In this document: positions 6,001 through 63,991 of the stretch, in pieces
How the letters are laid out: each line of letters begins with the position of its first letter
Position numbering within the stretch: position 1 is the first letter of the stretch
NCBI GenBank assembly: GCA_010093605.1
Contig: MU004182.1
Location: 1,907,195-1,971,194, forward strand
Direction: 5' to 3'
Length of the DNA stretch: 64,000 nucleotides
Source: Lophium mytilinum
Lineage: Eukaryota > Ascomycota > Dothideomycetes > Mytilinidiales > Mytilinidiaceae
The notes under the pieces: generated by a model
The model's input: the letters and a program-made list of their open reading frames with translations, nothing else
What the model was told of the DNA's origin: nothing
Database searches by the model: none
Program-made: the position numbers and the translations under genes

Positions 6001-6870
6001 TATTCTAACTCTTAAGGTTAAAAGTGCAATAGAAGAGACTATAAATAGAGAAGCAGCAATCTAAAATATAGGTAGAAGGAGTAAAGCGTACTAATATAGA
6101 GGGAAACAAGAGATATAAAAGAAGTAAATAGAAAGAAAAAGCTATAGAGGCGGTGGCGTTATAGCTATAATACTAGAGGCTATTCTATAATATAAATATA
6201 AGAGACTACTACTAGAGCTTATATTAGTAGTAAAATAGTTATATACTTTTTATTATTTATAGATAGTTATATACTACGGCCTAACTCTTAAATAATAGGT
6301 CTTAGTAGTAATATAGTAAGAGTCTACCTAAGAATATATTAAGTATTCTAATTATAATTTATAAGCTAGACCTAGCGCTAAATTATAGAATAGATAGATT
6401 ATATCTTTTCTACCTATTCTCTATATATCTATTAAATCCACTTTTTAACTACTATAGCTCTAACTTTACTATACTAACTATTTATAGAATAAAGATTAGA
6501 CGTTCTAGCCTAAGTACTTACTATCTCTACTTACTTCTACCCCCGCCTTATACTACTATAGAGAGAGAAGAGCGGTAAATAGAATTATTTTATAGTAGAA
6601 TATAGGCGGCATTATATACGGGGCACGTATATATTAGCTCTAGTACCGCTAAGGCTAATTAGGTAAAAGACACTATAGAACTAAATTATTAATAGTTTAA
6701 AATAATAGATAATAATTAAGTATTATTAGGCTGCATAGTATATAGGTAAACTACTACTAGTCTATATAGTAATATTACCTGCGCTAGTAGTTTATATAGA
6801 CGTTGCGTAATTTACGCGGTTTGCTGGAAGTTTACGCCGTTTACTGCCGAGCACTAATAGCCCTAACTTT
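1..6870. repeat. RIP-degraded AT-rich block, unassigned repeats
   Basis: About 6.9 kb of AT-rich DNA in which CA and TG dinucleotides are nearly absent while TA is extremely common and CG persists. This is the pattern left by repeat-induced point mutation acting on repeated DNA. All six frames are dense with stops and no gene survives. Some stretches (for example about 3.3-4.4 kb on the plus strand) keep protein-like composition, which suggests old element coding sequence, but I could not assign a family. The last part, around 6,800-6,850, is less depleted (it keeps several TG and CA steps) and may be the end of an older element. Nothing else can be supported here. Confidence 0.8.
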
Positions 6871-6879
6871 TACAGTTTT

Positions 6880-9800
6880 AGGTTTTTCTAATATTCTAAT
6901 ATAATAACTCTAATAAAATTAGAACTACTAAAAATAAGCTTTATAAGCTTATCTAGACTAATAGTATAATACCTAATTATATATAGAAGCTAATAAAGTT
7001 ATATATAATCTATCTTCTAGGCTATAAAGGCTATAATAATATCTATAACCTTAAGTAGAAACTCTATCTAGATATTATTACCGGCGCTATTTTAGGTAAA
7101 GGCTTTACTACTAGCCTATAGTATATTAACGCTGCGCGTAAATAGCTCTATAATAATAGTATTAATAAGAACGCGCAACCTACTAACTATAGCTTTAGAA
7201 ACTTTAACTATAACTAGCCCTAAGACTTTAATTATAATAGTTATAACTATAATAACTATAACTACTATAATAGTAATTACTATAACTATAACTATAATTA
7301 TAACTATATCTATACTCTACACCCCTTAACTATAGCTACTATCTCTATAGCCTAAGAAGATATTAAGATTACCCCTTCTTTTAACTAGGTACCCCCTAAT
7401 AAGCTCTATAAAGGCGATAGAGAAGCACTTATAAAAGATAGTAAATACTTCTACTACTATCTTTCTAAGTACTTTATGTAAAACCTATACTATTCTATAA
7501 ACTAACTTAATAAACTAGGCTTTACTACTTATTAGATAGATTTATCCTTAGTACCCCGCCTTAATAACCGTGCCGCCTGCGTTAAAGAACTCTTAGATAA
7601 TAATAATAATAGTTTTAATAACTATAAAACCCTTAATAATAAATATAGCTCTAATTACTCTAAAGGTAAAAGTTTTAAGGGAAAAGTAAAATTATAGACT
7701 ATAGTTGCGGTCTATAATATAATAAGAACTTAGTTATATAGAATCTTTAATATAGATAGCTTATTATTTTAGTAGCCTCTCTTAGTAAAACTTAATAGAA
7801 ACTATTTTAAAATAAAGATAGAGGATTTAATATTAAGTAGGTAAATAATATAGTTCTTTTAGTAATAGTATAAACCTATAAGAAAGAATAACCCGTAGAA
7901 ATAATAAAAATTAATTCTTATCTTAATTATAGAGCTACTAATTTATTTACTAGTACTAAGTTTACGCACCTAGTAAATCTACCTCTAAAACCCCTTAAAA
8001 AAGCCTAAGTTCTTAAACTAGCTAATAGATTAGCTATTATCTAAAAAGTAATATATAAAGCCCTCCTTAATATAGATATAAATAGCTATTAGAGCTATTA
8101 CTAGGCTTATATTACTAACCTAGAAGACTATAATATTATTATAGAACTTAACTAGCTCTAAGAATATAACCTAGCTATTAATTAGAAAGCTAGACGCTTA
8201 GATTTTATATATTCTTACTATAAGCCCTATAAGAACTATATATATTATTTTAACTATAACTCTATTACTATCTAGGTAAATAGTATGCATTCTTATAATA
8301 TACCTAATAATTACTATAACCTAATAGATTAGAAATCTATTAGCGTAGACGCCTACCTATAAATAGCCTCTATTACTAAGTATAAAGAATAGAAACTTAA
8401 GTAGATTTCTTGCTATATTCTAGAGACTCTAGAAAATAAGAATAAGAATTTTATTATAGCTTATAATAGCTTATAAGTTCTTGCCTTCTATATAGGTAAT
8501 AATATTCCGCTTAAAGTATATAAAATATTAGCTAAAGATATTAATAAGTTTATATATACTAAGAAGTACCTCTTTTAAGAAGAGATAGAATAATAGCTTC
8601 TAAAATGCCTACACCGCTATATTTATATATTTAACTAAGTTAAGGCTAATATACTATCTCTATACTAACCCGGAATTAATTACAAGATTAATCTAATAGA
8701 AGGAGCCGGTAAACTACCTAAGGCTAGGCTATATACTATATTAAAAGAAGAACTTAAAGTTATAAAGAAATAGATTAATAATAACCTAGATAAAGAATTT
8801 ATCTATAAGTTATAATTCTCTATATTCTCCCCTATACTTCTTATCTAAAAGCTAGAAGAGGGTGTTTATTTCTATATTAACTATAGAGCTATTAATACTA
8901 TAATAGTTAAGATAAGATATCTACTACTATTTATTTAAGAAATACTCTAAAAGCTTAGTAATGCTAAATAGTATTCTAAACTAGATATTATTTCCGCATT
9001 TAATTAAATTTAAATATAGAAGAAAGATATAGGTCTTACGGCCTTCTCTATATAATAGAGATAATATAAATCTATTATTATACCCTTTAGCGTTATAGAA
9101 GGCTCTAGATAATTCTAATTCTTTATTAATTAGATACTATATAACTATCTAGATAATTTCTATTTAGCCTATATAGATAATATTCTAGTCTATATAAATA
9201 GTACTAAAAAAGAATATAAAAAGTATATTATAAAGGTACTAAAAAGGCTTAATAAAGCTAGCCTTAACTATAACTTTACTAAATATAAATTTAATAAGAC
9301 TAAGATTAAATACTTAGGCCTTATTATTATAATAGAGGGCGTCTATATAGATATAGATAAGGTTACTACTATTATTAACTAGAAAACTTCTATATACCTA
9401 CGCGATATATAAGCCTTTATAGAATTTACTAATTTCTACTAATACTTTATATACGCATTCTTCTATATAGTCTTACTACTTACGTCTATAATAAAGATAA
9501 CTAACGGGAAGAAGATAAAGCTTAAAGCTTAATTTATCTAGAATAAAGAATATAAATAAGTGTTTTAGGCGCTAAAAGCGGTATTTACTACTATACCTAT
9601 CCTCTACTATTTCTAATATAGTAAAAAGGTCTATATTAAGACTAACACTTTAAACTATATTATTACTAGTATTATATTATAAAAAGGCAAAGATAGCCTA
9701 CTTTATTCTATTACCTTCTTCTTCTCTAAAATAAACCTCTAAAAGTGTAATTATAAGATCTATAATAAAGAATTACTTACTATTATTAAAGCCTTTAAAG

Positions 9801-11727
9801 AATAGAGGCCTAAATTAGCTAGTACTAATCTAGATAACTCTACTAATATACTTATAAATTATTATAACCTAGAATACTTTATATCTATAAAACACCTTAA
9901 CCGCCGCTAGGCCCGCTAGGCCGGTTTCCTTACTAGTTTTAACTTTAAAATTATCTACTAACTAGGTATCTTAGAAGGAAAGCTAGATAGCCTTACTAGA
10001 TAATTATAAGATCTTTCTATAGACCTAAATAACCTATAATATTAATTCTAATATTAAATAGTTCTTAAATTATAAAACCTAGGCCCGGGCGTTATACTAA
10101 CCTATTTACTAAAAAACATTAAATTAAGCTTATCTAATAATAGCCTAGGCCGCATACTAAATCTAATTAGGCTACTTCCCTACTATAAAGAGTTAGACCC
10201 GTTAATAACTATAGAGTTACTACTATTAAAAATATACTTTTAATTTCTTCTTGCACCTATACGGCTGCGCAGTTACGCGTATAATAATAACGATATTAAC
10301 TCTAACCCTAACTCTAACTCTAATTCTTCTCTTGCGGCTAATTCTTTTAAGAATAATAATAATCTTTATATAGAACCTAATCTAGTTTAGTAATATATAC
10401 TTACTAATCTATTTAATAAAGGCTACTCTAGCTAGCTATCTAAACTACTCTTTAACTCTATACTCTATAAACTTATTACCCTTATATATAATAATAAGCG
10501 CGTACTTTCTTAATCTCTATATAATATTATTAGTAATCTAGATATCTTAGAATTTAAAATCTGCTATAACTAATTATACTATTACGGCTAGTTATATATA
10601 TCTGCGTATAATAATTTACGCCTTAAGCTTCTATAGCTTACCTATAATACTACTATTAGTAGATACTTAGAAAAGCATAGTATATATAAACTTATCTAAT
10701 ATTACTACTTCTAGCTAGGTATATATAATTTAGTTAAAAACTATACTAGCGCCTACTATAGTTATAAATAATTAAAGGCCTTCTATAATAAGAAATAAGA
10801 TCTCCTATATTCTCTTAATATACTAGAATAGCGCTAGACTAATATTATAATAGACTTTATTATAGAGCTCCCTTTCTATAAGTATAATAGCTAAGTCTAT
10901 ACTAAGATTCTTATTATTATCTACTACGTAAGTAAAGAATATTACTATATTTCTATAAGCGGCACCTCTATTTATAATATTATTAATATCTTTCTCTATA
11001 AGATCTACCGCCTTTATAGCCTCCCCTATACTATTATTAGTAATTATAATCTATAATTTATTTTAGATATTTAGAAATATATTTATAAGTATATTAGTAT
11101 CTATTAGAATATTTCTATAGTAGCCTACCTAGAAACTAATAGATAAATAGAAAATATAAACGCTATTATAAAGGCCTATCTTAGGTAATTTATTAATTAC
11201 TACTAGAATAACTAGGTTAACTACTTACCTATTAGTAAGTTCTTAGTAAATAACTAAGTTAATACTTCTACTATAATAATACTATTCTTTATTAATAAGG
11301 GTTTTTACCTATATTCTAGGCTTAAGCCTCTACTAGGCGTAATAAATAATATTATACTAGACTCTCTACCTACACCTACTCTTAGTATTAATACTACTAT
11401 CTATTACTATTAGCTTAAAGGTAATATATATATTAACTAGATAAAGAATATTCTAAATAAATATAAGGCTATAATAACTTAGATATAATAGATTATACTC
11501 TACCCTCTAGTTATATATTTATCTATTACCGGCCTTCTATCTCTATATCTATTATATTACCTAGCGCTATCTATATACTAGCCCGCCTAGCGCCTACGCG
11601 CCTCTCTTCTCTATATATATAGTTTCTACCTAGAAGCCTCTCTTTCTACTTCTTATATAACCTCTTAAAATTAATCTATCTAGTTACCTTATACTACTAA
11701 GCTCCTCTATACTATAACTATAATATT
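6880..11727 (+). mobile_element. Ty3/Gypsy-type LTR retroelement fossil, copy A (5'-truncated)
   Basis: This copy lies in the same orientation as the fuller copy that starts at about 11.5 kb and matches it over gag and pol; the match begins near 6,890 and corresponds to about 13,660 onward in the second copy. It has the end of gag (with an Asn/Tyr-rich low-complexity tract near 7,230-7,320), then reverse transcriptase, RNase H and integrase-core regions, and runs directly into an LTR at about 11,484-11,727. It lacks a 5' LTR, the front of gag, and the roughly 1 kb integrase-tail/chromodomain segment present in the other copy. It is a fossil, broken by dozens of RIP-type stops. Age cannot be read from divergence because RIP dominates the differences. 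Confidence 0.75.
11484..11727 (+). repeat. LTR 1 of the chromovirus array
   Basis: About 244 bp, nearly the same sequence as the stretches at about 19,307-19,554 and 20,564-20,814. All three share the run beginning TAATAGATTA, the internal block with CTCTTCTC then TATATATAG, and the end CTATACTATAACTATAAT. Boundaries are good to a few bases, because RIP has blurred the terminal TG and CA. Confidence 0.7.
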
Positions 11728-14700
11728 AAATTATATTTAATACTCTAACTAGCACTAATTCTTTTTTACTATTACTACTTTAACTCTTAAACCTTAATTC
11801 TTATTTACTAAGCTATCTAATAGCTTAGTAAGTATACCTATATAACTATATATATAATACTAAAGAGTATATAGCTATAATATTTTACCTTACTAAGTAC
11901 TATTACTATATTCTTTATAATAAGTAATCTACCGCCTCTACTAGGCGCTAGAATAGAATCTAGATACTCTAGGCGTAGTAGCTTATAACTAGCCTTCTAC
12001 TTTCTACTACTATCTTATTTATAGTCTTGCGCGCTCTCTAAGTCTTCTTATAAGACTCTAAAGAGCGCACCCCTCTAAAAGCTAGCTAAAGAAGATACCT
12101 AGTAGTCTATCTAAGAAGATACCTAGTAGCCTACTTAAGAAGATACCTAGTAGTCTACCTAAATAGTGCGCATAGACACTTAGCTAACCTAAGAGAAAGA
12201 GAATTAGCTTACCTAGAATAAAGATACTACTAAAGATAATTATAACTCTATATATACTCTAGACCTAATAGTCTATAGCTCTATTATTAAGTACTATACT
12301 CCTAGCTATAGCTATAACCTAGGCACGTTTCTTAACTCTATTAATAATGTTACTAAGTTCTTAGACTATTTACTTCTGCCTGGTAATAAATAGTTTAACA
12401 GCCTAATTAAGATTATAGATTCTTAGGACTTTCTTATACAAGTTTAAGCTAATTTTATCTACTTTTTCTATATTCTTAGAAGCTATTAAGCTATAACTAA
12501 GATTCTTTAGTAAATATATAAGGATAACTAGAAAGCGTAGTATAAACTCTAAGATAAAATTAGAGTTCTTAAAGATAAATATAATAAAAAGAATAATAAG
12601 TTAGAAGCTATATATAAGAAACTTAAGCGCCTACTTAATATTAAAACTAAACTAGAAGAATATAAGAATAAACTTTATATCTATAAAGATAAAATTGCCT
12701 CTCTCTAATTAGATATTAAGGCCTAATAAAAGAACTATATTTAAGCTAATAAATAGTCTATAGAATAAGGAAAGATTATTAAGCGCCTTATAGCTAACCT
12801 TACTTAAGCTACTAAGAATAAGTATAAGTATAACACGCGTCTTACTACTTTAGAAGATAAAATTAGAATACTATATATACTCTAGCGCACTTCTATACCT
12901 ATGCTAACTATATAAGCTGCTTCTATAATAGCTATAGTAAACTATTAAAGCTATTCTATTATACTATAACTACCTATTAACTCTATTACTATAGTAGTAG
13001 AAGATCTGCTCGCCTCCCTTAATAGAGTAATTAAATTAAAAGAAGCATAAGCTAATAATAGCTTTTTAGTAGGTTATAACTATAATACTAATTAACTTTA
13101 TTACACTATAGAGCACGTAAGTAATAAAAATTAAGCTTACCGCACTATAGAATATGTACGCGGTTACTATAACTCTAGCCCGCTCTTATCTAATAATAGA
13201 AGCCCCCCTTATTACTGCAATTATATATATAGCCTATCTTATTATTATAACTACTTCTATAAGTATTACTTTTATTAATACTTATACTTACGCTTATACT
13301 TACACTTATATTTATAAAATGTAAGCTATCTATATTACTATTACTAAGACCCCTATATTAAAATATCTAAAGATTATTAGAACCTTAGTATTACTCTAAA
13401 TAGGGTCCCTTATATAGAAGATAAGTTCTAGCCCTATCTAGATAAGTTTAGAGGTAATAAAGATAAGTACCCTAAGTTTTATTATAGATTCCTAAATAAA
13501 GTTAACTATAGTAGCTATACTATAAGATCTAGTAAACCCTTATACCTTATCTACCTTAGTAAGTAACTTATAGGTATACCCTTTAAAGGCTTCCGCGCCT
13601 AGTAAGATAGCTACTAGCCCTTTCTTACTATCTAAGAAGCTATTATATTCTTAGACTTCTAATATAATAACTTTAATAAGATTAGAACTACTAAGAATAA
13701 GCTTTATAAGCTTATCTAAACTAGTAGTATAATATTTAATTATATATAGAAGCTAATAAAGTTATATATAATCTACCTTCTAGACTATAGGGGCTATAAT
13801 AATATCTATAACCTTAAGTAGAAACTCTACCTAGATATTATTACTAGAGCTATTTTAGGTAAAGGCTTTACTACTAGCCTATAGTATATTAACGCTGCAC
13901 GCAAATAGCTCTATAATAATAGTATTAATAAGAACGCGCAGCCTACTAACTATAGCTTTAGAAACTTTAACTGTAACTAACTCTAAGGCTTTAATCGCGA
14001 TAGTTATAACTATAATAACTGCAACTGTAATAACTATAATTACTATAATAGTAATTACTATAACTATAATTATAATTATAACTATAACTATACTCTACGC
14101 CTTTTAACTATAGCTACCGCCTCTATAACTTAAGAAGATATTAAGATTACTCTACCTTCTAACTAGATTCCTTCTAATAAACTCTATAAAGGTAATAGAG
14201 AAGCGCTTATAAAAGATAGTAAGTATTTCTACTACTATCTTTCTAAGTACTTTACCTAAAACCTATACTACTCTATAAATTAACTTAATAAACTAGACTT
14301 TACTACTTATTAGATAGATTTACCCTTAATACCCCGCCTTAATAATCGCGCCGCCTATATTAAAGAACTCTTAGATAATAATAATAATAGCTTTAATAAC
14401 TATAAAACCCTTAATAATAAGCGCGGTTCTAGTTACTCTAAAGGTAAGAGTAAGGGAAAAGTAAGGTTATAGACTATAGTTGCGGTTTATAATATAATAA
14501 GAACTTAGTTATAGAGAATTTTTAATACTAAAGGCTTATTATTTTAGCAGCCTCTCTTAGTAAAGCTTAATAGAAACTATTTTAAAATAAAGATAGAGAA
14601 TTTAATATTAAGTAGGTAAATAATATAGTTCTTTTAGTAATAGTATAAACCTATAAGAAAGGATAATCTATAGAAATAATAAAAATTAATTCTTATTTTA

Positions 14701-17700
14701 ATTATAGAGCTACTAATTTATTTACTAGTACTAAGTTTATGCACCTAGTAAATTTACCTTTAAAACCCCTTAAGAAAGCCTAAGTTCTTAAACTAGCTAA
14801 TAGATTAGCTATTGCCTAAAAAGTAATATATAAAGCCCTTCTTAGTATAGATATAAATAGCTATTAAAGCTATTACTAGGCCTATATTACTAACCTAGAA
14901 GACTATAATATTATTATTAGCCTTAACTAGCTCTAAGAATATAATCTAGCTATTAACTAGAAAGCGGGACGCCTAGACTTTATATAATCTTACTATAAGC
15001 CTTACTAGAATTATATATACTATTTTAACCGTAATTCTATTACTATATAGGCTAATAGTATGCGCCCTAAAAATATACTAAATAAATACACTAATTATAA
15101 CGCTACTAATTAGAGACCTATTAGTATAGACGCCTATATACGCATAGCGTCTATCTTTAAATAAAAAGAATAGAAACTTAAATAAATTCTATAATATATC
15201 CTTAAAGCATTAGAAAATAAAAATAAAGACTTTATTATTACCTATAATAGACTCTAGGTTATTGCCTTCTATATAGGTAATAACGTTCTACTTAAAGTAT
15301 ATAAAATATTAGCTAAAGATATTAATAAGTTTATATATATAAAAAAGCACCTCTTCTAAAAAGAGATAGAATAATAGCTTTCTAAATGTCTATATTACTA
15401 TATCTATATATTTAACTAAGTTAAAGCTAATATACTACCTCTATACTAACCTAGAATTAATTATAAAATTAATCTAATAGAGGAAGCTAGTAAACTATCT
15501 AAGGCCTGTCTATATACTATATTAAAGAAAGAACTTAAAGTTATTAAGAAATAGATTAATAATAACCTTAATAAAGGATTTATCTATAAGTTATAATCCT
15601 CTATATCCTTCCCTATACTTCTTATCTAGAAGCCTAAAGGGGGCGTTTATTTCTATATTAACTATAGAGCTATTAATACTATAATAGTTAAAATAAGATA
15701 CCTACTACTACTTATTTAAGAAATACTCTAAAAACTTAGTAACGCTAAATAGTATTCTAAACTAGATATTATTTCTATATTTAATTAAATTTAAATACAG
15801 GAAGAAGATATAGGTCTTATAGCCTTCTCTATATAATAGGGATAGTATAAATCTATTATTATGCCTTTTAGCGTTATAGAAGGCCCTAGGCAATTCTAAT
15901 TCTTTATTAATTAAATATTATATAACTACCTAGATAATTTCTATTTAGCCTATATAGATAACGTTCTAGTCTATATAAATAGCACTAAGAAAGAATATAA
16001 AGAGCACGTTGTAAAAGTACTAGAGAGGCTTAATAAAGCTAGCCTTAATTATAACTTTACTAAATATAAATTTAATAAAATAGAAATTAAGTATCTAGGT
16101 CTTATTATTATAATAGGAGGCGTCTAGATAGACTCTAAGAAAGTAGCTACTATTATTAATTAGAAGACCCCTATATGCCTATATAATATATAAGCCTTTA
16201 TAGAATTTACTAATTTCTACTAATATTTTATATATATATTCTTCTATATAGTCTTACTACTTACATCTATAATAAAGATAACTAATAGAAAGAAGATAAA
16301 GCTTAAAGCTTAATTTATCTAGAATAAAAAATATAAATAAGCGTTTTAGGCGCTAAAAGCAGCATTTACTACTGTACCTATCCTCTACTATTTTTAGTAT
16401 AGTAAAAAGGTCTATATTAAGACTAACACTTTAAACTATATTATTACTAGTATTATATTATAAAAAGGTAAAGACGGCTTACTCTATTCTATTGCCTTCT
16501 TCTCTTCTAAGATAAACCCCTAGGAATATAACTACAAGATCTATAATAAGAAATTACTTACTATTATTAAGGCTTTTAAAGAATAGAGACTAGAACTAGC
16601 TAGCGCTAACCTAGAGAACCCTACTAATATACTTATAGATTATTATAATCTAGAATACTTTATATTAATAAAATACCTAAACTAACGCTAGGCCTATTAG
16701 GCCGGCTTTCTTACTAGTTTTAACTTTAAAATTATCTATTAACTAGGCATCCTAGAGGGGAAACTAGATAGCCTTACTAGATATTTATAGGACCTTTCTA
16801 TAGACCTAAATAATTCTTATTATTAATTTTAATACTAAACTATCCTAAAATCTTATAACCTAGAGAATAGAGTAGTATCTTATTTACTAGATATTTAAAT
16901 AAGCTTACCTAATAATAGCCTAGCCCGCATACTAAATCTAATTAGGCTACTTTCTTACTATAAAGAGTTAGACCCGTTAATAACTATAGAGTTGCAACTA
17001 TTAAAAATATACTCTTAATTTCTTCTTATACCTATATAGCTGCGCAGCTACACGCATAATAATAATAATATTAACTCTAACCCTAACTCTAACTCTAACC
17101 CTAACTCTAACTCTAACTCTAACTCTAATTCTTTTCTTATAGCTAATTCTTCTAAAAATAATAATAATCTTTATATAGAACCTAATCTAGTTTATTAATA
17201 TATACTTACTAATCTATTTAATAAAGGCTACTCTAGCTAGCCGCCTAAACTACTCTTTAACTCTATACTCTATAAACTTATAGCCCTTATATATAATAGT
17301 AAGCGTGCACTCCCTTAATCTCTATGTAATATTATTAGTAATCTTAATATCTTAGAATTTAAAATCCGCCGCAACTAATTATACTATTACGGCCGGTTAT
17401 ATATATCTATGCATAATAATTTATATCTTAAGCTATTATAGCTTACCTATAATACTACTATTAGTAGATATCTAGAAAAGTATAGTATATATAAACTTAT
17501 CTAGCGCTACTACTTCTAGCTAGGTATATGTAATTTAGTTAAAAACTATACTAGCGCCTACTATAGTTATAAATAGTTAAAGGCCTTCTATAATAAGAAG
17601 TAAGGTCTCCTACATTTACTTAATATACTAGAATAGCGCTAGACTAATATTACTATAGACTTTATTATAGAGCTTCCTCTCTATAAGTATAATAGCTAGA

Positions 17701-19306
17701 TCTATACTAAGATTCTTATTATTATCTACTATATAAGTAAAAAATATTACTATATTTCTATAAGCGGCACCTCTATCTATAATATTATTAACGCCTTTCT
17801 CTATAAGATCTACCGCCTCTATAGCCTCCCCTATATTATTATTAGTAATTATAATCTATAATTTATTTTAGATATTTAGAAACGTGTTTATAAGTATATT
17901 AGCGTCTATTAGAATATTTCTATAGTAGCCTACCTAGAAACTAATAGATAAATAGAGAACGTAAACGCTGTTATAAAGGCCTACCTTAGATAATTTATTA
18001 ATTACTGCTAGAATAACTAGGTTAACTACTTATCTATTAGTAAGTTCTTAGTAAATAACTAAGTTAATACTTCTACTATAATAATGCTATTCTTTATTAA
18101 TAAGGGTTTTTACCTACGTTCCGGGCTTAAGCCTCTACCGGGCGTAATAAATAACGTACTAGACCCTCTACCTACGCCCGCTCTTAGTACTAACGCTACT
18201 ATCTATTACTATTAGCTTAAAGAAGATATATATATTAACTAGATAAAAGATATTCTAAATAAATATAAGGCTATAATAACTTAGATATAAACTAAATAAG
18301 TAGATTATATAAATTAGTACTATAATCCTCCCCTAAAGCTCTAAGTTAATAACTAGGTATAGCTTAACGCATGTAATATAAAGACTACCTAACTAAATAA
18401 ATTACTTAATTATAAGAACCTTAGTCCCTTCTATATTACTAAAGTTATTAATAATAGTTATACCTTCTAGCTTAACTTTATAAATATAAGCCTTAAAGGC
18501 TTTTAAACGCACCCCGTCTTCTATCTATACCTTCTCTACCTAGATAGGTTCTATCCGCTGCTAGGCTAACGCTAGCCACCGCTACCTTCTATTTAGGTAA
18601 TTAACCCTATTATATCTAAATCTATTAAATAATACACAATTACACGCATTATTAATAGCCGCTAGCGCGGCCGCGGACTAAAAGAATACTACTACCTTAA
18701 ATATAAAGAACTTTATAAAGAGTATACTATACTATAGAAATAGTAACTATAGAAATAGTTTATACCTAAAGCCGCGGATCTAATTAGTAAATTCTATAAT
18801 CTTAACTCTAATGCTAACGGTTCTTATCTAGACTTTAAATCTAATAATAACTAGCGCGCGCGCCTTACTAATAATAATAACCTCTCTACTAACTATCTAT
18901 AATTATAATTACTCTATATTAAGTTATATTCTTATCTTTATATAATTACCTCGCTGCACCTCTATACCGTAATTAATAGCCTTATATAGTTTATTATAAC
19001 TTTATATATAATAACTATAATAAGATTAGAATTCTTAGCCGCATAAAGTGGGCTAAGCTATTATAATAGGAAAGCCCTTATAAGTAACGCCTTAAGTACG
19101 CTAGCTTCTTATATATTAGTATATAATTAATAATTAGTAAACTACGCTATATAATTTACTATACTAGATAACTATTTACGCCCTTATATTTAAACCTAAT
19201 AGCTAATTACACCCTTATATTTAAACCCTATAGGGCCTATAATACTATTTCTTTTTCCTTTTTCTTATTCTTTTTATTTTTCTTCTAGCGTTCTTAAATA
19301 GGGGGG

Positions 19307-19554
19307 TAGTATAATAGATTACGCTCTACCCTCTAGTTATATATTTACCTATTACTAGCCTTCTACCTCTATATCTATTATATTACCTAGCGCCGCCTAT
19401 ATACTAGCCCGCCTAGTACCTACGCGCCTCTCTTCTCTATATATATAGTTTCTACCTAAAAGCCTCTCTTTCTACTTCTTATATAACCTCTTAAAATTAA
19501 CCTATCTAGTTATCTTATACTACTAAGCTTCTCTATACTATAACTATAATATTA
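19307..19554 (+). repeat. LTR 2 of the chromovirus array
   Basis: Second copy of the roughly 250 bp LTR. It is preceded by a G-rich run just before TAGTATAATAG, which fits a polypurine tract at a 3' LTR. Differences from the other two copies are mainly C/T and G/A. Confidence 0.7.
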
Positions 19555-20814
19555 GGTATAAACTAAATAAGTAGATTATATAAATTAGTACTATAATTCT
19601 CTACTAAAGCTTTAAATTAATAACTAGGTATAGCTTAATATATATAATATAAAGACTACCTAACTAAATAAATTACTTAATTATAAAAACCTTAGTTCTT
19701 TCCGCATTACTAAGGTTATTAATAATAGTTACGCCTTCTAGCTTAACTTTATAAATATAAGCCTTAAAGGCTCTTAAACGCACTCTATCTTCTACCTATA
19801 TCTTCTCTACCTAGATAGGTTCTATCTACTGCTAGGCTAATACTAGCTACTACTACCTTTTATCTAGATAATTAACTCTATTACCTTTAAATCTATTAAA
19901 TAATACCTAATTATATAAATTATTAATAGCCGCTAGCGCAGCTACAGACTAAAAGAACGCCGCTATCTTAAATATAAAGAACTTTATAAAGGTTATACTA
20001 TACTATAGAAATAGTAACTATAGAAATAGTTTATACCTAAAGCCGCGGATTTAATTAGTAAATTCTATAATCTTAACTCTAATGCTAATAGTTTTTATCT
20101 AGACTTTAAATCTAATAATAACTAGCGCGCGTGCCTTACTAATAATAATAACCTCTCTACTAACTATCTATAATTATAATTACTCTATAATAAGCTATAT
20201 TCTTATTTTTATATAATTACCTTACTATACCTCTATACTATAATTAATAGCCTTATATAGTTTATTATAACTTTATATATAATAACTATAATAAGATTAG
20301 AATTCTTAGCTATATAAAGTAGGCTAAGCTATTATAATAGAAAAGCCCTTATAAGTAATACCTTAAGTATACTAGCTTCTTATATATTAGTATATAATTA
20401 ATAATTAGCTAAACTATACTATATAATTTTATCTTCTAACCGGCCTAATAATTTAATAACTATTTACGCCTTTATATTTAAACCCGGTATAACTTAGATA
20501 CTCTTTTCTTTTTTCTTTTATTTTTACTTTATTTTTACTTCTAGCGTTCTTAAACGGGGGGGTAGTATAATAGATTACGCCCCGCCCTCTAGTTATATAT
20601 TTACCTATTACTAGCTACTAGCCTTCTACTTCTATATCTATTATATTACCTAGCACTATCTATATGCTAGCCTACCTAGCGCCTATACGCCTCTCTTCTC
20701 TATATATATAGCTTCTTTCTAGAGGCCTCTCTTTCTACTTCTTATATAACCTTTTAAAATTAACCTATCTAGTTACTTTATACTACTAAGCTTCTCTATA
20801 CTATAACTATAATA
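19555..20814 (+). mobile_element. 3' fragment of the same LTR retroelement family (copy C)
   Basis: Immediately after the 3' LTR of copy B, the sequence repeats the stretch from about 18,284 to 19,306 (integrase tail, chromodomain region and purine tract) and then a third LTR at about 20,564-20,814. This is a tandem 3' fragment, LTR-body end-LTR, as expected from unequal recombination between neighbouring copies. It carries no independent coding capacity and is RIP-degraded like its neighbours. Confidence 0.75.
20564..20814 (+). repeat. LTR 3 of the chromovirus array
   Basis: Third copy of the LTR, preceded by the same G-rich tract as LTR 2. It ends where a different tandem repeat (20,815 onward) begins. 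Confidence 0.7.
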
Positions 20815-43560: not shown

Positions 43561-46500
43561 AGCTTTTAGGCCTCTATATAAGCTTATAAATTAAACTAGG
43601 CTTAATAGGTTTATTTTTAATAGATAGCCGCCTCTAAGGCCCTTCTAGAGGCGCTTAATAAGCGCTAAATTGCCTAAAATAGTAATAGATATATATATTA
43701 AGCTATAGAGAATATAGCTAAGCTACTATACTATAGAAAGCTATAGAGAAGTAGATTTAAAGGCTTTATAGGCCTTATCTAGTTAGAAGAGCTATAGACT
43801 AACTTTTACTATAGCTATACTAAGAATCTATCTACCTATATTTCTATACTATATTAGTAATAAAAAAGTAATAAAAATTAATAGATTTTAATACTATAAA
43901 GCCGTAAGAACTTACTATATAGAGGCCCTTTCTATACCTTTTTAAAGGCCTTAATTTATTCTTTCTATCTTATATAGCCTCTTATATAGCCTCTTATATA
44001 GCCTTACTATTATTATCTATAGCCCTGCTATTATCTATATACTTACTATTATCTATAGCCTTTAATTCTGCCCTAAATTAAGCTATTCCTAGCCTAAATT
44101 AACTACTTTTTATCGCCTGCCTTATTGCCGCGATGTAATTAGCTAGTGTTTCTAATATTAGTAATTAATTTAGCTATTAGAATAAAATCTAACTTCTTAT
44201 CTATAATATAGCTATTAAGGAATAATAGGCTTCTTATATGCATGCTAGTAAGAATAGCCGCCTAGACCTCCGCTACTATTTAATAGAGGATTATAACTAG
44301 CGTCTCTATACTATAAGAAAGAAGAATAAGAAGTTAATTACTATAGTAAAGGTTAATAACCTCTACTATTATATTAGGGCTCTACTAGTTGCCCGGGCGC
44401 CTTATACTTATATTAAGTACCTACTAGAGGTGCTACCTTAATTTCTATATATTAATAGAGTAACACTAATAGTAACTATCTAGTCTATAGTTGCAATATA
44501 CTATAAAGGGCCTATTAAGAAGGCGCAGGCTTAAAAGGTTTAGAAGATTCTTACTAGTAAGAAGATAGTTACTATATAAGAGGACTACTAGAGAATTTCT
44601 AAGTTCCTCTAGCGCCTTTATAAGGCTAACCTAGGTATTATAATAGACCTTATAATATAGGGTAATATCTTTCTACGCATCTTTATCTACTCTAAGGAGA
44701 GTAACCTCTTTTTTAGTAATAGTCTTAGATAGATAGAACTTAATAGAATATACTAGCGGAATAGCTATAAAGGCGTTATCCTAATAGCTATTAGGCGTAA
44801 CTAGAATAATAAGATCTATCCGCTAGTATAGAGTATTATAGAGAATAAAAGTAATAAGATATAGGCGTAGTTCTATATAAATATAATTAGGGCTATAGTA
44901 GTTCTAAGGGCTAGCTAGTAGACTATCTACTTATAAGTATTATTTTCTTTTTTAAGAATATCTATGTATTTATTTATTATAGAAAGAACGCGCTAAACGC
45001 GTTAATTTTAGTAAGAAATTACGTATTTATAAGCAAGTTCCTATTATAATAAATAAGTATAGATATTAATAAAAATTATAATAGCCCCCTTTTAATTTCT
45101 ATACGCCTATTTATAATAGTATCTATACCTCTTAATTTCCTTCTATATACTTCTTAACGCCGCAGTTAATTTCTATACCTATTTTTATAGTCTCTATTAA
45201 CTATACTATTCTCTATAGTAGATTATTTAAAAATCTATCTACTTATACTATTTTTTTTATAGTAATTATAATAAAGGCCTAATTAATACTATTACTATCT
45301 ACTTTCTAGCCTACTACGCTATATACTATTGCTAGCACCTTATAGAGAATATTAAGAAGGCCTATAGAGTTACTAGCTTACGCCTATTCTATATAGTTAC
45401 TTAATATACTAATAATATATTATTTTAGTAGAATATAGCTAAAATAGCTATTTATAGCCTAGGCGCTGTAGCCTATATACTTACCTAGAACTCTAGAAAG
45501 TAGCTATTAAAAGACTACCCTACTAGGCGCTTTAGGTCTATTACTAGCGGCGTAAGTAAGTTCTAGAATAAGGTTATCTATAATAAGCGCTTAAAGTTAA
45601 TACTCTTACTTATTAGCTTTATCTAGTACTAATATATTATAACTTATACTAAGTACTACGCTAAGATTATAAAGCTTAGTACCTCTATCTAGCGCCTTTA
45701 TAATTTTAATAGCTTTAAGTACTTTTTTTAGTATAGCTAGAAGCTCTATATATAGGTATAGAGGGAGGGCGCTATATACTACTACTATTTAAATATATTT
45801 ACTAACCTAGATAGCGCCTTTCTCTTAATATATATTCTCTACTACTATATAGTAAAGGTCTATATAGTATGCCTTAACCTATATAATTATATATATAAAG
45901 AATTCTAGAATTATAACTTTTCTTACTACTATACTATTACTATTATTAGCGCCCTTAGGTAGAAGATAGAGAGATAGGTATAATTCTTCTATTAAATTAC
46001 CTTATAGCTAAGGTTCTATAAGGCCGTACGCCTACCGCTAGTATACCTAGTTAAGCGCTATTCTTAGCCTATAAGAACTAAGGATATTATTTTATTAAAT
46101 ACCTGCCTAGCGCCGCCTAAGAAGATGCTTTAAGGTCTAGTGCAGCGCAATTAATAGCGTGTAGGTAATAGCTATAGCCCTGTAAGAGTAGAGGGCTAGG
46201 CGTACTTAGTATATAGCCTAAGGGGTTATAATAAATAGAATAAATAGAAGTATAGAGAATATATAATAATTTAATATATTTTAATACTTTTATATAGGAA
46301 TTAAGCCCTTTTTTATAGTCTCTAGGCCTATTTTCCCTTAGTTTAGTATATAGGCCTTTATTAGTTACTTCTTATATATTTTTAGTTAATTTTTAATTAA
46401 TTATATTAACTACTTCTACTAGTAGAACGCCGGCTATAATCTAAGCCTAATTTAAAGGCTATTACTAACTACCTAATTAGATTAGTTCTACTTAGCAAGC

Positions 46501-46895
46501 TAATTAGATTATATAGAAACTTAATACTACCCTACTTATTTATTCCCTAATTAAAATCTATTACCGCTAAGTATTCTTACTTACTATTTTTATACTTTTA
46601 TTTAAAAATTTATAACTTTATTAATTTCTATACTAAATTATACTAAATTCTAGCTTAATAATTCTTAGACTTAGCGCTATCCTTTACTAAAAGGTAAGAA
46701 GTAAAAAGAAAGCAACCTTACTAGAAATTAAACCTATAAAAAGGTCCCTTATCTATAGTAGAGCCGGGTTAGTGCCTATTATTATAACTATAGACGCAGT
46801 AGTAGATACTAACCTAATACCGCCCTACTAACTACTAAACTATACTAGAACTATTAAAGAATAGCTAAAATTATTAATTATATATACCCTAAAAT

Positions 46896-47157
46896 AATAT
46901 TATAATAATAATAGGGGTGCAGCATATAAAGCATATAAGAAATTACACCTTAATACTATAGCTAAGGCCTATATAGAGTTATATAGTAGCTAAAAACACC
47001 TCTATAATATAAGATAATAGAGCTAATACTTAAATAGGCCTAGAAACTAGTTACTAGGCCTTAATTAGTATAGGCGTGTTAATCTAGCGTCCCGGAGGCG
47101 TTTATAGGTATTGTAAAACGTTTACTGCCAAGATACAGGCAATCTAAACTGTAGCCC
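46896..47157 (-). repeat. MULE right terminal inverted repeat
   Basis: Reverse complement of the left terminal repeat. It ends CTGTAGCCC directly before the right copy of the 9-bp target duplication. Confidence 0.8.
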
Positions 47158-48083
47158 GGCTGGGACGGGATGGCTGCAAGGGGTAGGGGCTTCATGCGGT
47201 GAAGCGCGGGTTTGCTGGGCTTCTGAGTGGTGGGATGTGCCTCGGTGTTTTGGGTTTGCGTCTGGTTTGGGAAGAGGGGAGAGGAGGTTGGGAGGGTGGT
47301 CATGGGGGATGTGACGTATCTGGTCGGCAGATGGTTCTGTGTGTGTTTGCGATAATGGGGTGTCTTTTGGTGTGGTTGTCTTATGGTTTGGGGTATGGGG
47401 TAAGTTAGGGGGTGAGTATGAGCAGATTGACTAGGTTCAAGCCCTTAAGTGGTAAGTGTGAGAACGAACATGGTCCTGGAATGAAGGTTGAATATAGTGA
47501 CAGATTTTGTATCTTAGCGGTAATCTGAGTGCCTGATGTTGGTACTGTGACTTGATAATACCTACTGTTGTGTCTCGTTTATGGACTTCTAATGTTTACC
47601 ACCCTAGCCAATCCGCCCGAAAAGCCCTTTATATTCGCAGTCTTTTCTTTCATCACCTTTATAGTATAATAGATCTAGTTGGAACTCAGGAAACATGACG
47701 CTACAGCTGAAAAGAAAGGGAGGTCCGAAGAAACACACAAACAAATAGCTCCAAGAAAGCACGAACAAGATCGAAAATCCTAGAAAACCTTAGCAAGTCA
47801 TTCACACCTATCCTCCTCATCTCTCTCCAAGAATCAAGTATAGCCGAGATGTCTCAAGAAACTCAAAGCGCTGCAAAGATCATTCTCCACCATCCCAGCA
47901 TCGCAAACAACACCCCTTCTCCACACTATGAGCTCCTCATCGAAAATTCCACCCACAAGCTCGTAGTTGTATATCTACACCACTACCGCTGCTGAGCGGA
48001 CCACATCCCGCGCACACTCACCTTCAACACGCTTCGACCACCAACTCAACACCTGAACCAAACCCACAACTCTGAAACCCAAC
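47158..48083. other. Intergenic region right of the MULE
   Basis: Begins with the right target duplication (47,158-47,166). G-rich at first, then normal. A 45-codon ORF starts at about 47,850 but has no family resemblance. No supported gene. Confidence 0.55.
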
Positions 48084-58694: not shown

Positions 58695-60358
58695 ATGTCA
58701 TTCTCTTTCATCCCCGGCGTCGAGGCTGATTCGACCAAGATCCACGGCAGCGTTGAGGTAGTATGGAAGGATGCGGCTGGTAACAAAATATTGGCCACGG
58801 AACTCTTCCCTGTTAATAGTATGGGAGATAGCGGTATACTAACCATCCTTCTCACAGGTTCTGATATTGACTGCTGACCATGTGTTCACAGATGGGACCG
58901 CGGTCCAGCAGAGGGAATTTGCCACCACGCAACACCTCAAATTCGCCATTCCCGGAGCGGAGCTTGACTTGGAGAAGATACAGGGCTCTGTACAGATCAT
59001 CTGGAAGAACGAAGCTGGAACACAGGTCCTGGACACCGAGCTCCTTTCGGTAGCAGTTAAAGTGACCAACTGTATGTCTACAGGCTTTCTGAACATGCTA
59101 ATGCAGCGCACTAACATGATTTCAAAGGCGAAACATCAACTGGACAGCAAGGCCCACCAAGCACTCCACGTCCCACCATCACCATTCCCGGCATAGAAGT
59201 CGACGTAGCCAAAATCCAAGGGAGCGTACAGATCATCTGGAAGCATGCAGCCGGTACCGAGATACTGTCCACGGAACTCTTCTCTGTTAATGGCGTGGCG
59301 GATAGCGGTATGCACATACATCGCCTCTTATATTCTCGTTGAGACCATTTCCTAACTTGTCTCGCAGATACAGCATCAGTTTCCCAAAGGGAATCTTCCG
59401 GCGTACACCAGTCTGTCACTACTCCAGATGATCCTTCGGATCCGGCCACGGTCCAATCACTGATCATCAAATTGGGACCAATTGGAAGGAAGCGCAGTGC
59501 GCCTACATCGTCTTCAAGTGGGACATTAAAGCCCGCATTCAAGAAAAAGAAGAAAGAGAGGGTGAAAGGTACAGGCATTTCTTCTCGACGTGTTGAGATC
59601 TTGTACTCACATACCTCATAGGAACACCATCAATCGCCTCTGCGGATTCTTCCAGGAATTCAAGTTCCCTCATCACGTCCAATGAGCCATCGATGCCGGT
59701 CACATCTACCCCTAAAACGGTTGCCCGAACTGAACTAACTCAAACTGAATCCGGGCACGGGATCTTGGGGCAGACTTCGATGGGGTCCATCAAAGATCAT
59801 TCCTTGCAAGATAGAATCGCGGCTCTTCGTTCGGAATACGCAACAGCCCGACCCTCAGGCCCTAGCGACAGCTCCGTGGTCACCCCTGTCACTACGGGTA
59901 CTAAAACAAGCCCCAGTACTGCTCTCAACTGCGAAAGCGCGGATACAATCAATGACCGGGGAATCTTCATCTTCGCTAGTCGAAGAAGTGGGCGGAATGA
60001 CTCGGAGATTCATCAAGGCTTCGTTTACATGAATCTCGAAAATTTGACCATAGTGGTGTGCCATCACGACAGAGTAGACGCTATCCCAGCTGCATACTTC
60101 TGTAAGTCAGACTCTCAATTACTCCCAAATACTGGACCTAATTCAGACCTAGTTAAAGCAGATCACGTCCCCTGTAGATCTAGCACTTACCATATGATCA
60201 CGTTCCGCGGCTTTCTGGCGAGCGAAGACGACCGGCTCTTCTGGCTCCGTATGCCTCCGAAGACGCAGCCTGAAAATTACTGGTACAAGAACGAGGCAAC
60301 CCACAATAGCAAACACTTGCAGCTTTTCCTGGATGATGTTGCAAAAGCCTTAAGATAG
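58695..60358 (+). CDS. PG-(E/D) repeat protein A, unknown function
   Basis: Six exons: 58,695-58,833, 58,892-59,071, 59,128-59,307, 59,368-59,568, 59,622-60,101 and 60,147-60,358, total 463 residues. Each of the first three exons encodes one copy of a roughly 40-residue repeat: FIPGVEADSTKIHGSVEVVW, AIPGAELDLEKIQGSVQIIW, TIPGIEVDVAKIQGSVQIIW, each followed by K-x-x-AG...L-x-TEL. Exons 2 and 3 are both exactly 180 nt with phase 1 at both ends, a sign of exon duplication. A basic stretch (FKKKKKERVK) in exon 4 could be a nuclear signal. Residues about 350-463 form a separate domain (IFIFASRRSG to FLDDVAKALR) that resembles the C-terminus of the gene at 62,058. The last intron (45 nt) has no stop and keeps frame. 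I recognise no known family. Confidence 0.7.
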
Positions 60359-62057
60359 GACTTAAGGTTCTAGTACACCTCCAAAATTTCTGCGGACCTT
60401 ATCAATGCCCGAGTCACTTTCTTTAGCGTTGGAAAAATTTACTTACATTTCTCCCCACTCCTTAGTAATCAAGACATTGGGGCTTGAAAAAGCCTCCTTT
60501 TTTGAGGATATCTGCCTAGAGAGACATCAGATCAGCGTGCTAGGTCGACCTCTTTATATTTTCTAGATAGCTCTCAAGTCCAATCTGATCTTGTCTTTTC
60601 AATCTGTGTCGTACGATTCAATGTCTCGCTCTCTTCACTTTCAGGGTAAAGCAATGGCACGGTGGCAGTACCTGGAATATAATCTATGAGGTACTGCATG
60701 CTACTGTCTGAGATACCTTTAGAAATTATGCGATGTACAATCCTAAGCAGCGCGAATTGGATTGGGGTTGAAAGCTCTCAATCAACCTAGCTTTCCGTTG
60801 CCGAGGGTAGACTCGCATGCGAGAAGAAATCTCAAAGAGAGAGCAGACAGACTTGTATTCTAGTACTGCATTCGACCCACATTGGATGCTAACAGGATAT
60901 TGAAGGTCCGATGGCTATGGCGAAGAGGGAACTTGCTGGATTATTGGTGGAGTTTCGGGGGATCCAATTGGCGGACATCTGAAGGGCCAGACGGAGGTAA
61001 CAGTCCGGGAGTCTGCGCTTTTGACTGCATTGTCACTGACCAGACCTTCAAACAAAAGCATGAGGTAGGTCCTGAAAAAAGCCTACAGTGGCTTATCATT
61101 GCTAGAAATTAGTCTGACGAGAGGTGCTTGTGTGAATACCTGTAAGAACAACTTCACTTAAGGCTTGAGATTCACATGGCTGACGACTAGGCTGGCTATA
61201 TCAGTCAAGATGGCCATCAGAGACATAGTGCTTTACCATGACCTTGACTGTATCAAAGCTTTTGGCATCGTCGGCTACGAACCCGGTTATGGGATCACCG
61301 GTGGTTCTGTTTCACTGGTATTGGACATCGGGTGCGCTATAAGGAACAGAAGTCATAAGAAGGGAACTGGAAGGACTTTTCGGTACCGCAGACTATCAAT
61401 TCAGTTCTGTGACGCTCACTGAAGATGCATTCCAAGACATCCAGGAAAATCACAGGTAAGCAGGTCATCGGACCTAACAAGTCTATCCTAAAACAACATC
61501 AGCATCTCTGTGGCACACTCGTACCCTCTTCTCCAACAGCCTCTTCCCGGTTCATTTTACTTCTACCGCCATTCAACGTAGGTACACACCGCAGAGTCCT
61601 GCACTTGGCATTGGCTTGCTTGGCCTTCGCTCTTCCGAGCAACTTCTATCCGGTTCATCTCACCTCTACCTTGATTCAACTTGCACGCTGCTGATTCCTT
61701 CTCAAATTACATGTCGTTGCTCAACAACGTAACCTGGAGCCAGCTCACCAACTACTCTAAGGATCTTCCAACTTAATGGCTTTTCGGCTATCACCTCCGA
61801 GTTAACTTCCGACCGCAACAGCCCAGCCGGCAGATATCACGGAGATTTCTCCGTCGTAGTCTGCTTGATATTTCACTTTTCATTGCTAGTCTCGACTTCT
61901 CGTAGACACGAAGCGCATCTCCTCTTCGCAGCGGGCGCGCGCAAATAGCTGGACAGCTTCTCACTTTCCATTCCTACCAGGCATTTCGTTTCCGCGCCAG
62001 CTCCGCACGCCTCGGCCGTATCATGCATCGCAATAGCTGTATCTAAAAGCAACAATC
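60359..62057. other. Intergenic region, 1.7 kb
   Basis: The longest gene-free stretch outside transposons. Several short ORFs without similarity. A degenerate direct repeat (CCGGTTCAT...CTCTACC...ATTCAAC) occurs at 61,547-61,579 and 61,650-61,680, about 103 bp apart. The last 300 bp is pyrimidine-rich and likely the leader of the next gene. Confidence 0.55.
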
Positions 62058-63991
62058 ATGGCACGCCGCGTCACCTTCCCCGGTCTCGACCTCTACATTG
62101 GTCAGCTCCATGGCAAATTGTCCATGTCTTTGGCATCGAAGACATACCCTAGCTTCTCATTGGAGCTATATGGCACTACGCAAAGCAGTTCTATTGAGTA
62201 TCATCAAAGCCCTCCCCCTAGCGGACTCAGCTCCCCAATCGCCAGGCGAATCATGTTGCCTGGGCTGAATCTGGACGTCTTAAGACTGGGAGGCATTCTG
62301 AAGTTGTGCTTTGAAGGGCTTGAAGGTGCGAGACTCGTATACGAGCTGGCTGGATGTGACGAGCAACTTAACCCAGCTACTATCACAACACCGTTCAGCC
62401 ATCAGGCAGACCCTGAGAAGTCGCCCAACCCAACGAAAAGCTCCTCTGAATCTCCGGTGGCGCAGTCTTCCCCTATAAAGCCTTCCGCTACAAAGTCTTC
62501 CGCTGCGCAGTCTCCCGCAAACGCAAACGGGAATAGCAACCAACAGAAACACTTACCAGCATCGAAAGAGAACGTAGCCAAGCCACGTTTGAAGGTACCA
62601 TCATCCAGTCCCCAGGACCCCGAGTCAGTCCTCAACAATAGCATAACTCAGCAGTCAATCAGCACACCTCAAACGTCCTCGACGGAGAGTCTTCCATCCC
62701 TTAGTACCCCCAGGTCTACCATTCCCACTAAATCTCCGCAAACATCCTCTACATCGCCAGTAAGCTTAGACGCCGGGCACCCCGTCCAAAAACCGACTGT
62801 TGCTGTTGCTGTCGTTACGAAGGCCGCCTCACTCAACCCCACCTCGGCCATATCGACACCCGCTAAGGCAGCATGGCCTCGTAGTCCACAGGTCCCAGCC
62901 ATCACGGACAAAAGGCCATGCAACGCTCCGACATCAGCACCAGCAGCAAAGAAGATTAAGATAAAGGTTGAAGGGCATACGGTGTCTAACGTGACAGCAC
63001 CCGACAAGCGTTATGGCTTGCTGGGGTATCTCGAAGAGACCCCCATCATCAAAGCCGAAAATCCAGCCACTACAGAAGTCGGATCTGGTAATTCTGAGCT
63101 GAAGACATCTACTGTCACTCAAGCCCAGCCTGCAGGTATCAACACAGTACCCAACTCTGGGGCAACTTCTGGTCTCCAAGCACCAGCTGGTCAGGCTAGC
63201 ACAGTCAACGTGGCAATTTCCGAGCCCTCGCCAGATTCCGCCATACAAATTCAACTACTGGAAACCAAGGTTTTGCTTGCGGTGAGAAGTTTGGAATGGC
63301 TGAAGGGCAAACGGTCTTTCGACGAAGTGGAACTCCCGCAGCGGCGTGAAGCATGGAAGTCTTATCTAATGGCATTCCAAGAACTAGCCAGCTTCAAGGC
63401 GAAGCAAACTGATACCAGGCGAGCGCAAGATCGATTGATCTTTCAAGCGGCTGGAGAGGCTATAAAAGCGGTGGCCAAGGAGAAAGAAGAGGCTCTAAGA
63501 GACATGGATGTCATTTATGTCTATGGCTACAATACTACCCCAAGATTAGGCTTCAGAACATACGGGAAGCTCCGCATTGATCTGAAAGCTCGGTCACTGC
63601 ACTGGGAATACGTCGATGTATCGCGCGCTGAAGACGTCAGCCTCTACGCAAGTAGTAAGTACTCTAATTTGTGCTTGTTTGTTCCGCAAGAAAAGAACCT
63701 AATATCATGATAGCGAGCGTGTCATTGACCCGCGCCAGTCCTGGAATTCTGCTGCTGGAACTGCGCGCTGGCCGGATGGGGATTGGAACGTACTTTTCCA
63801 TAAAGGTCTCTGACAGCCACAAGATCCATGGCGTGACTCCCAAGAGCTACGAATGGAGGAAGTCACATACGGAGAACAATATTTGGGTTTACCCGGGTGT
63901 GGTTGACATCATAAAATCCCTTCGACCACTCAGTAAAGCGAAGAGCATGATCGCTAACTCCAGCGCTACGGCTAGCTCTACAGTAGCTTAA
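62058..63991 (+). CDS. PG-(E/D) repeat protein B, unknown function, relative of the gene at 58,695
   Basis: Two exons, 62,058-63,654 and 63,714-63,991 (59-nt intron, GTAAGT donor), total 624 residues. The N-terminus has two repeats starting RVTFPGLDLYIGQLHGKL and RIMLPGLNLDVLRLGGIL, each ending in an LEL/YEL strand about 20 residues later; the spacing matches the PG-(E/D) repeats of the gene at 58,695. Residues about 115-380 are a Ser/Thr/Pro-rich linker with a basic patch (AAKKIKIKVEG), possibly a nuclear signal. A helical segment (LLETKVLLAVRSLEWLKGKR) precedes a C-terminal domain (IYVYGYNTTPRLGFRTYGKL to IIKSLRPLSK) similar in layout to that of protein A. No known domain recognised. Confidence 0.72.

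Follow-up and report, generated by a model that had tools for sequence, protein, structure and literature searches.

The present analysis concerns two neighbouring genes, A and B, in a stretch of 64,000 nucleotides from the fungus Lophium mytilinum (contig MU004182.1, here C2:1907195-1971194), which is called the window below and whose own numbering is used for positions given without a prefix. The two genes lie on a common strand with 1.7 kb between them and start at 58,695 and 62,058, coordinates which had been given in an earlier note on this DNA and which proved correct. That note, made from the letters alone, had also described a repeat and a C-terminal region common to both genes and had suggested an old, strongly diverged tandem duplication within a family that it did not recognise. 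Here, we examined both genes together with a third, most likely decayed gene, C, on the opposite strand outside the window.

Gene A (58695..60358, plus strand; 463-residue model) has five or six exons, located at 58695-58833, 58892-59071, 59128-59307, 59368-59568, 59622-60101 and then about 60147-60358. Its first four introns (58, 56, 60 and 53 nucleotides) all have GT..AG borders and are all in phase 1; exons 2 and 3, with 180 nucleotides each, have phase-1 introns on both sides. The fifth intron is uncertain, with a phase-1 donor (GTAAGT at 60102), in-frame acceptors that give 45, 51, 57 or 60 nucleotides, and possible retention; this uncertainty leaves the domain picture unchanged. One repeat of ∼35 residues is found in each of exons 1-3: A1 (58710..58805; IPGVEADSTKIHGSVEVVW..ATEL), A2 (58948..59043; IPGAELDLEKIQGSVQIIW..DTEL) and A3 (59184..59279; IPGIEVDVAKIQGSVQIIW..STEL). 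Exon 4 (59368..59568, also phase 1-1) has the basic tail KKKKKERVK, which is the basic patch of a linker (residues 166-345) made up of 52% Ser/Thr/Pro/Gln/Asn/Gly. The same exon carries SVSQRE..TPDDPSDPATVQ, a candidate worn fourth repeat, which was rejected as not significant against the three repeats (p 0.12, 0.19 and 0.33). The C-terminal region occupies 59954..60355 and contains position 60102, where the uncertain fifth intron would begin.

Gene B (62058..63991, plus strand; 624-residue model) consists of exons 62058-63654 and 63714-63991 around its sole modelled intron (63655-63713, phase 1). Two repeats, B1 (62076..62168) and B2 (62256..62348), precede a linker (residues 106-395; 55% Ser/Thr/Pro/Gln/Asn/Gly) with the basic patch KKIKIK and a C-terminal region (63501..63988) that the phase-1 intron splits.

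The count of three repeats in A and two in B was borne out. In local alignments compared with 2000 shuffles (the A1xA3 pair was left out, and p values carry no correction for motif choice), z values within genes were 18.9 for A1xA2, 26.2 for A2xA3 and 9.4 for B1xB2, and all five repeats had the same distance between PG and the conserved G that follows it. Identity to A1 was 45% for A2 and 55% for A3. Among the gene A repeats, second codon positions were 75-92% identical and third positions 36-58%; the first and third repeats (r1-r3), the only one of the three pairs for which dS was computable, gave a non-synonymous divergence (dN) of 0.19 and a synonymous divergence (dS) of 1.19 by NG86. The repeats of A accordingly evolve like coding DNA, with purifying selection in this one pair.

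All six pairs of an A with a B repeat also exceeded their shuffles (z 3.1, 3.8, 5.7, 6.1, 5.8 and 9.1; p 0.012, 0.005 and, for four pairs, 0.0005, with the same limit as to motif choice). When a scoring matrix built from A only was applied to B (605 positions), the two best sites were exactly B1 and B2, the score of the best site being reached by none of 2000 shuffles and that of the second by one of 2000. When profiles of the A and B repeats were compared with each other, P was 0.0014, but the probability was no higher than 17.5%. Judged from these comparisons, homology of the repeats of the two genes is likely, not certain.

A further copy was detected by the A-repeat profile about 14.6 kb past gene B, where it matched the opposite strand at L016:4564-4662 (C2:1985758-1985856) with E 1.9e-4 among 2,379 open reading frames (ORFs) and 6.3e-4 among 7,910, the next best match being at 0.65. 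The gene, C, extends from C2:1985913 down to about 1985000 (L016:3806-4719). Its repeat starts with PPISMPGMDF and ends with ILRTEF, directly followed by a phase-1 donor; a Ser-rich basic linker comes after it, and then a C-terminal region that starts with IKIRMF and has a phase-1 GTAAGT donor. The end of the gene, EYWVEGEA...MRR, resembles ENYWYKNEA...ALR of A. The back half of the repeat was similar to A1-A3 (z 10.2, 7.0 and 8.7, respectively) and the front half to B1 and B2 (z 5.4 and 4.8). One in-frame stop lies in the repeat and, unless it is spliced out with an intron, another in the linker; the reading frame of the last block is closed shortly upstream. Gene C is thus most likely a decayed gene. 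Repeat-induced point mutation (RIP) was considered as the cause of these stops and rejected, as C lacks RIP-like dinucleotide indices. The linker also contains DLIEISDSDSD, which we take to look like a SUMO-interacting motif.

For the C-terminal region, the evidence differs between the pairs of genes. Between A and C, it is shared by sequence in its second half (z 8.2; none of 1000 shuffles as good), with less agreement in the first (z 3.2; 13 of 1000). A with B, and B with C, are linked only by the place and phase of an intron: a phase-1 intron follows 49 residues in A, 51 in B and 56 in C, counted from region starts that we chose ourselves. For a profile of the second half made from A only, 39 of 1000 shuffles scored as well as B. 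On the basis of the intron place and phase and of the third copy, common descent of the A and B regions is likely but unproven. When single-sequence AlphaFold was applied to the A region, read unspliced through the uncertain last intron, the model (predicted local distance difference test, pLDDT, 36) had strands at 3-10, 19-26, 30-38 and 77-85 and a helix at 120-133, which agrees with the layout proposed earlier; such a prediction is too weak for a fold to be named. For the repeat, a five-row alignment gave a model at pLDDT 67, likewise too weak for a fold assignment, with a predicted hairpin (30-38 and 45-54) in blocks at pLDDT 83 and 86.

Taken together, we consider that A, B and the decayed C form a small clustered family, which grew by gene duplication and by duplication of the repeat-bearing exon and which has no recognised relative in the libraries searched; we would give this explanation a probability of about 0.6. 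Because exons 2 and 3 of A have phase-1 introns on both sides, copies of the repeat can be added or lost without a break of the reading frame, and the phases and lengths in the gene model suggest that the repeats multiplied by way of such symmetrical phase-1 exons. The encoded proteins would follow one plan, with small N-terminal beta modules, a long Ser/Thr/Pro-rich linker with basic patches, and a C-terminal region for which strands and then a helix are weakly predicted.

A number of results weigh against a common origin of all three genes. With the A-repeat hidden Markov model (HMM), gene B was not reported at E<=20, and the B-repeat HMM matched the third repeat of A only at E 0.23. Over 325,047 six-frame positions in a 307 kb set (the window, L007 and 240 kb of neighbouring contig), the two B sites ranked only 5th and joint 10th for the A matrix, and six sites outside the family equalled or exceeded the score of the second B site. 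The front half of the C repeat had a z of only 0.7 against A1, and a profile of all five repeats matched gene C only at E 0.12. Between the A and B C-terminal regions, BLASTP found only a match of three residues (E 11); the first half had z -0.8, and nothing went beyond the second half (z 3.2, p 0.01). An A+C profile was matched as well by 593 and 239 of 1000 shuffles as by the two B halves, for which hhalign gave P 0.39 and 0.66. B and C were no closer than chance in this region (z -0.4 and 0.3; 551 of 1000 shuffles as good), and even for A and C, a search with the second half of A found C only at E 0.077, whereas one with the first half did not find it. In addition, all 31 Foldseek matches of the repeat model were at E 3.7 or more, and a shared fold of A and B cannot be supported from the models because their quality is too poor.

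Those of these observations that concern A and B could be explained if only A and C were kin and B were an unrelated neighbour, whose own internal duplication resembles the A repeat by chance under a motif chosen post hoc. This alternative is unlikely, but it is the strongest of those considered. Evidence against it comes from the two best A-matrix sites in B being B1 and B2, from the excess of all six A x B pairs over shuffles and the likeness of the B repeats to the front half of the C repeat, from the agreement in intron phase and place between B and both A and C, and from the position of A and B on the same strand at a short distance. The repeat thus appears to be shared by the three genes, although the A-B link is weak by HMM. 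As regards the earlier proposals, the repeat common to A and B holds in pairwise and matrix comparisons and is weak in profile searches; the matching C-terminal layout is present, with an intron of the same phase at the corresponding place, but a sequence match is unsupported. An old and strongly diverged duplication is favoured by the repeats, by the intron phase and place and by the decayed third copy, and not by C-terminal sequence homology.

The extent of the proposed family was examined in the genome (43,183,309 bases in 24 contigs) and in libraries comprising Pfam, PDB, a prokaryote genome collection and viral contigs. In homology searches of the genome, the queries were the A C-terminal ORF, exon 1 of B, A2, the N-terminus of B, the whole of A and the C-terminus of B; they brought up genes A and B only, apart from one match at E 0.10 on contig 11 (L007), which was rejected as a different frame is open there. 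Pieces of gene C gave self-matches only. It should be noted that the genome searches missed gene C and therefore do not prove that further distant copies are absent. In the 307 kb set, no match with an E value below 0.09 was obtained by profile searches apart from the three genes A, B and C; the C-terminal profiles used there match these genes by construction, because they were built from them. Against PDB, sequence searches gave no match for A at E<=10 or for B at E<=1, and the A-repeat profile gave four matches to dGTP triphosphohydrolases (E 1.8-1.9) that were judged to be due to chance. Patterns derived from the A repeat had 74 matches in the prokaryote genomes and 34 in the viral contigs, none of which was confirmed as a related locus. 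Among the titles listed for UBE2O SH3-C and for fungal exon duplication with phase-1 introns, none concerned an A/B/C family. As far as the Pfam, PDB, prokaryote and viral searches reach, the family appears to be undescribed.

The earlier statement that the family is unrecognised needs to be qualified for Pfam. Only PF23044 (SH3-C_UBE2O), PF07483 and PF18673 (E 0.099) matched A, two families matched repeat A2, and no Pfam family matched B or either of the A and B C-terminal regions. With PF23044, the whole A protein reached 32.9 bits (E 6.1e-8) in three stretches, above the cut-off of 21 bits, and the predicted hairpin of the repeat could belong to a small beta barrel. It might thus be argued that each repeat is a degenerate SH3-like module of the type known as UBE2O SH3-C and that A is a divergent member of a known family. 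However, A2, the only repeat that was scored alone, had 12.4 bits (E 0.15), below the cut-off, and the best stretch in A covers positions 34-66 of 68. Because of this low single score and partial coverage, the whole-protein result is regarded as the sum of three alike short matches. Among the sequences scored, none exceeded a per-domain cut-off of any Pfam family. PF23044 did not match gene B, and a ubiquitin-conjugating (E2) domain, which is a feature of UBE2O, had no Pfam match in A or B at E<=10. A genome search with PF23044 found nothing, but the controls likewise found nothing, hence it is uninformative. We consider membership in the UBE2O SH3-C family improbable.

With regard to the genomic setting, ordinary genes lie upstream of gene A, including those for an RsfS-domain protein, an SMC protein with a hinge and a DUF2838 protein. 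Positions 1-20000 and 44001-48000 of the window are AT-rich blocks (GC 26-33%) that adjoin balanced gene stretches, a pattern of fungal genomes with RIP-mutated repeats. Another AT-rich stretch, L016:1-2000 (GC 29-34%), lies between genes B and C and shows RIP-like dinucleotide indices (TA/AT 1.4 and 1.68); judged by eye, it is perhaps a mutated transposon. Secretion has often been proposed for fungal orphan genes that cluster next to AT-rich blocks, and a family that is small and clustered, includes a decayed copy and lies near such blocks would suit it, but proteins acting outside the cell are very improbable here, as both A and B have long linkers with basic patches and, by hydropathy, neither has a signal-peptide-like or membrane stretch (highest 19-residue values 0.79 in A and 1.24 in B) or an N-terminal hydrophobic core (12-residue maxima 0.62 and 0.64).

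What the clustered family might do can be proposed only tentatively. As the most likely role, the proteins may act as intracellular, probably nuclear, adaptors, in which the repeats would present the same binding surface several times, the linker would supply reach as well as a nuclear signal, and a second partner would be bound by the C-terminal region; this role is proposed with low confidence. It is also possible, though on balance we would not assume it, that the beta repeat, ∼35 residues within a 60-residue exon unit and copied as in-frame phase-1 cassettes, was previously undescribed and that, together with an unrecognised C-terminal domain, it marks a fungal family of multi-valent intracellular binding proteins whose repeat number varies between copies. 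Should members of the family also occur in other fungi, a new repeat and perhaps a new domain would enter the catalogue, and the growth of repeats through duplication of symmetrical exons would have a clear example that could easily be followed between strains. Should the family be limited to this fungus or close relatives, it would join the other fast-evolving orphan families that lie next to AT-rich blocks, and families of this sort are common. A small, clustered and fast-diverging fungal family is of an ordinary kind, and the exon-cassette repeat is its most interesting part.

Three known systems invite comparison with the A/B/C family. W_rich_C (PF07483, the Tryptophan-rich Synechocystis C-terminal domain) resembles 22 residues of repeat A2, and whole A reached 19.7 bits; however, this is below the curated cut-off of 26.2, and only positions 40-61 of 105 are covered. 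The PH-like superfamily is characterized by a seven-stranded barrel capped by a C-terminal helix. No sequence match to Pfam was found in the A C-terminal region, whereas its low-confidence model has four strands and then a final helix. A PH-like fold may be envisaged at low probability. SH3-C_UBE2O differs from the repeats in that about half of the domain is covered in A, in that B is unmatched and in that both proteins are without the E2 domain, but the G-S-V-x-(I/V)-x-W ... EL of the A repeat aligns with its second half.

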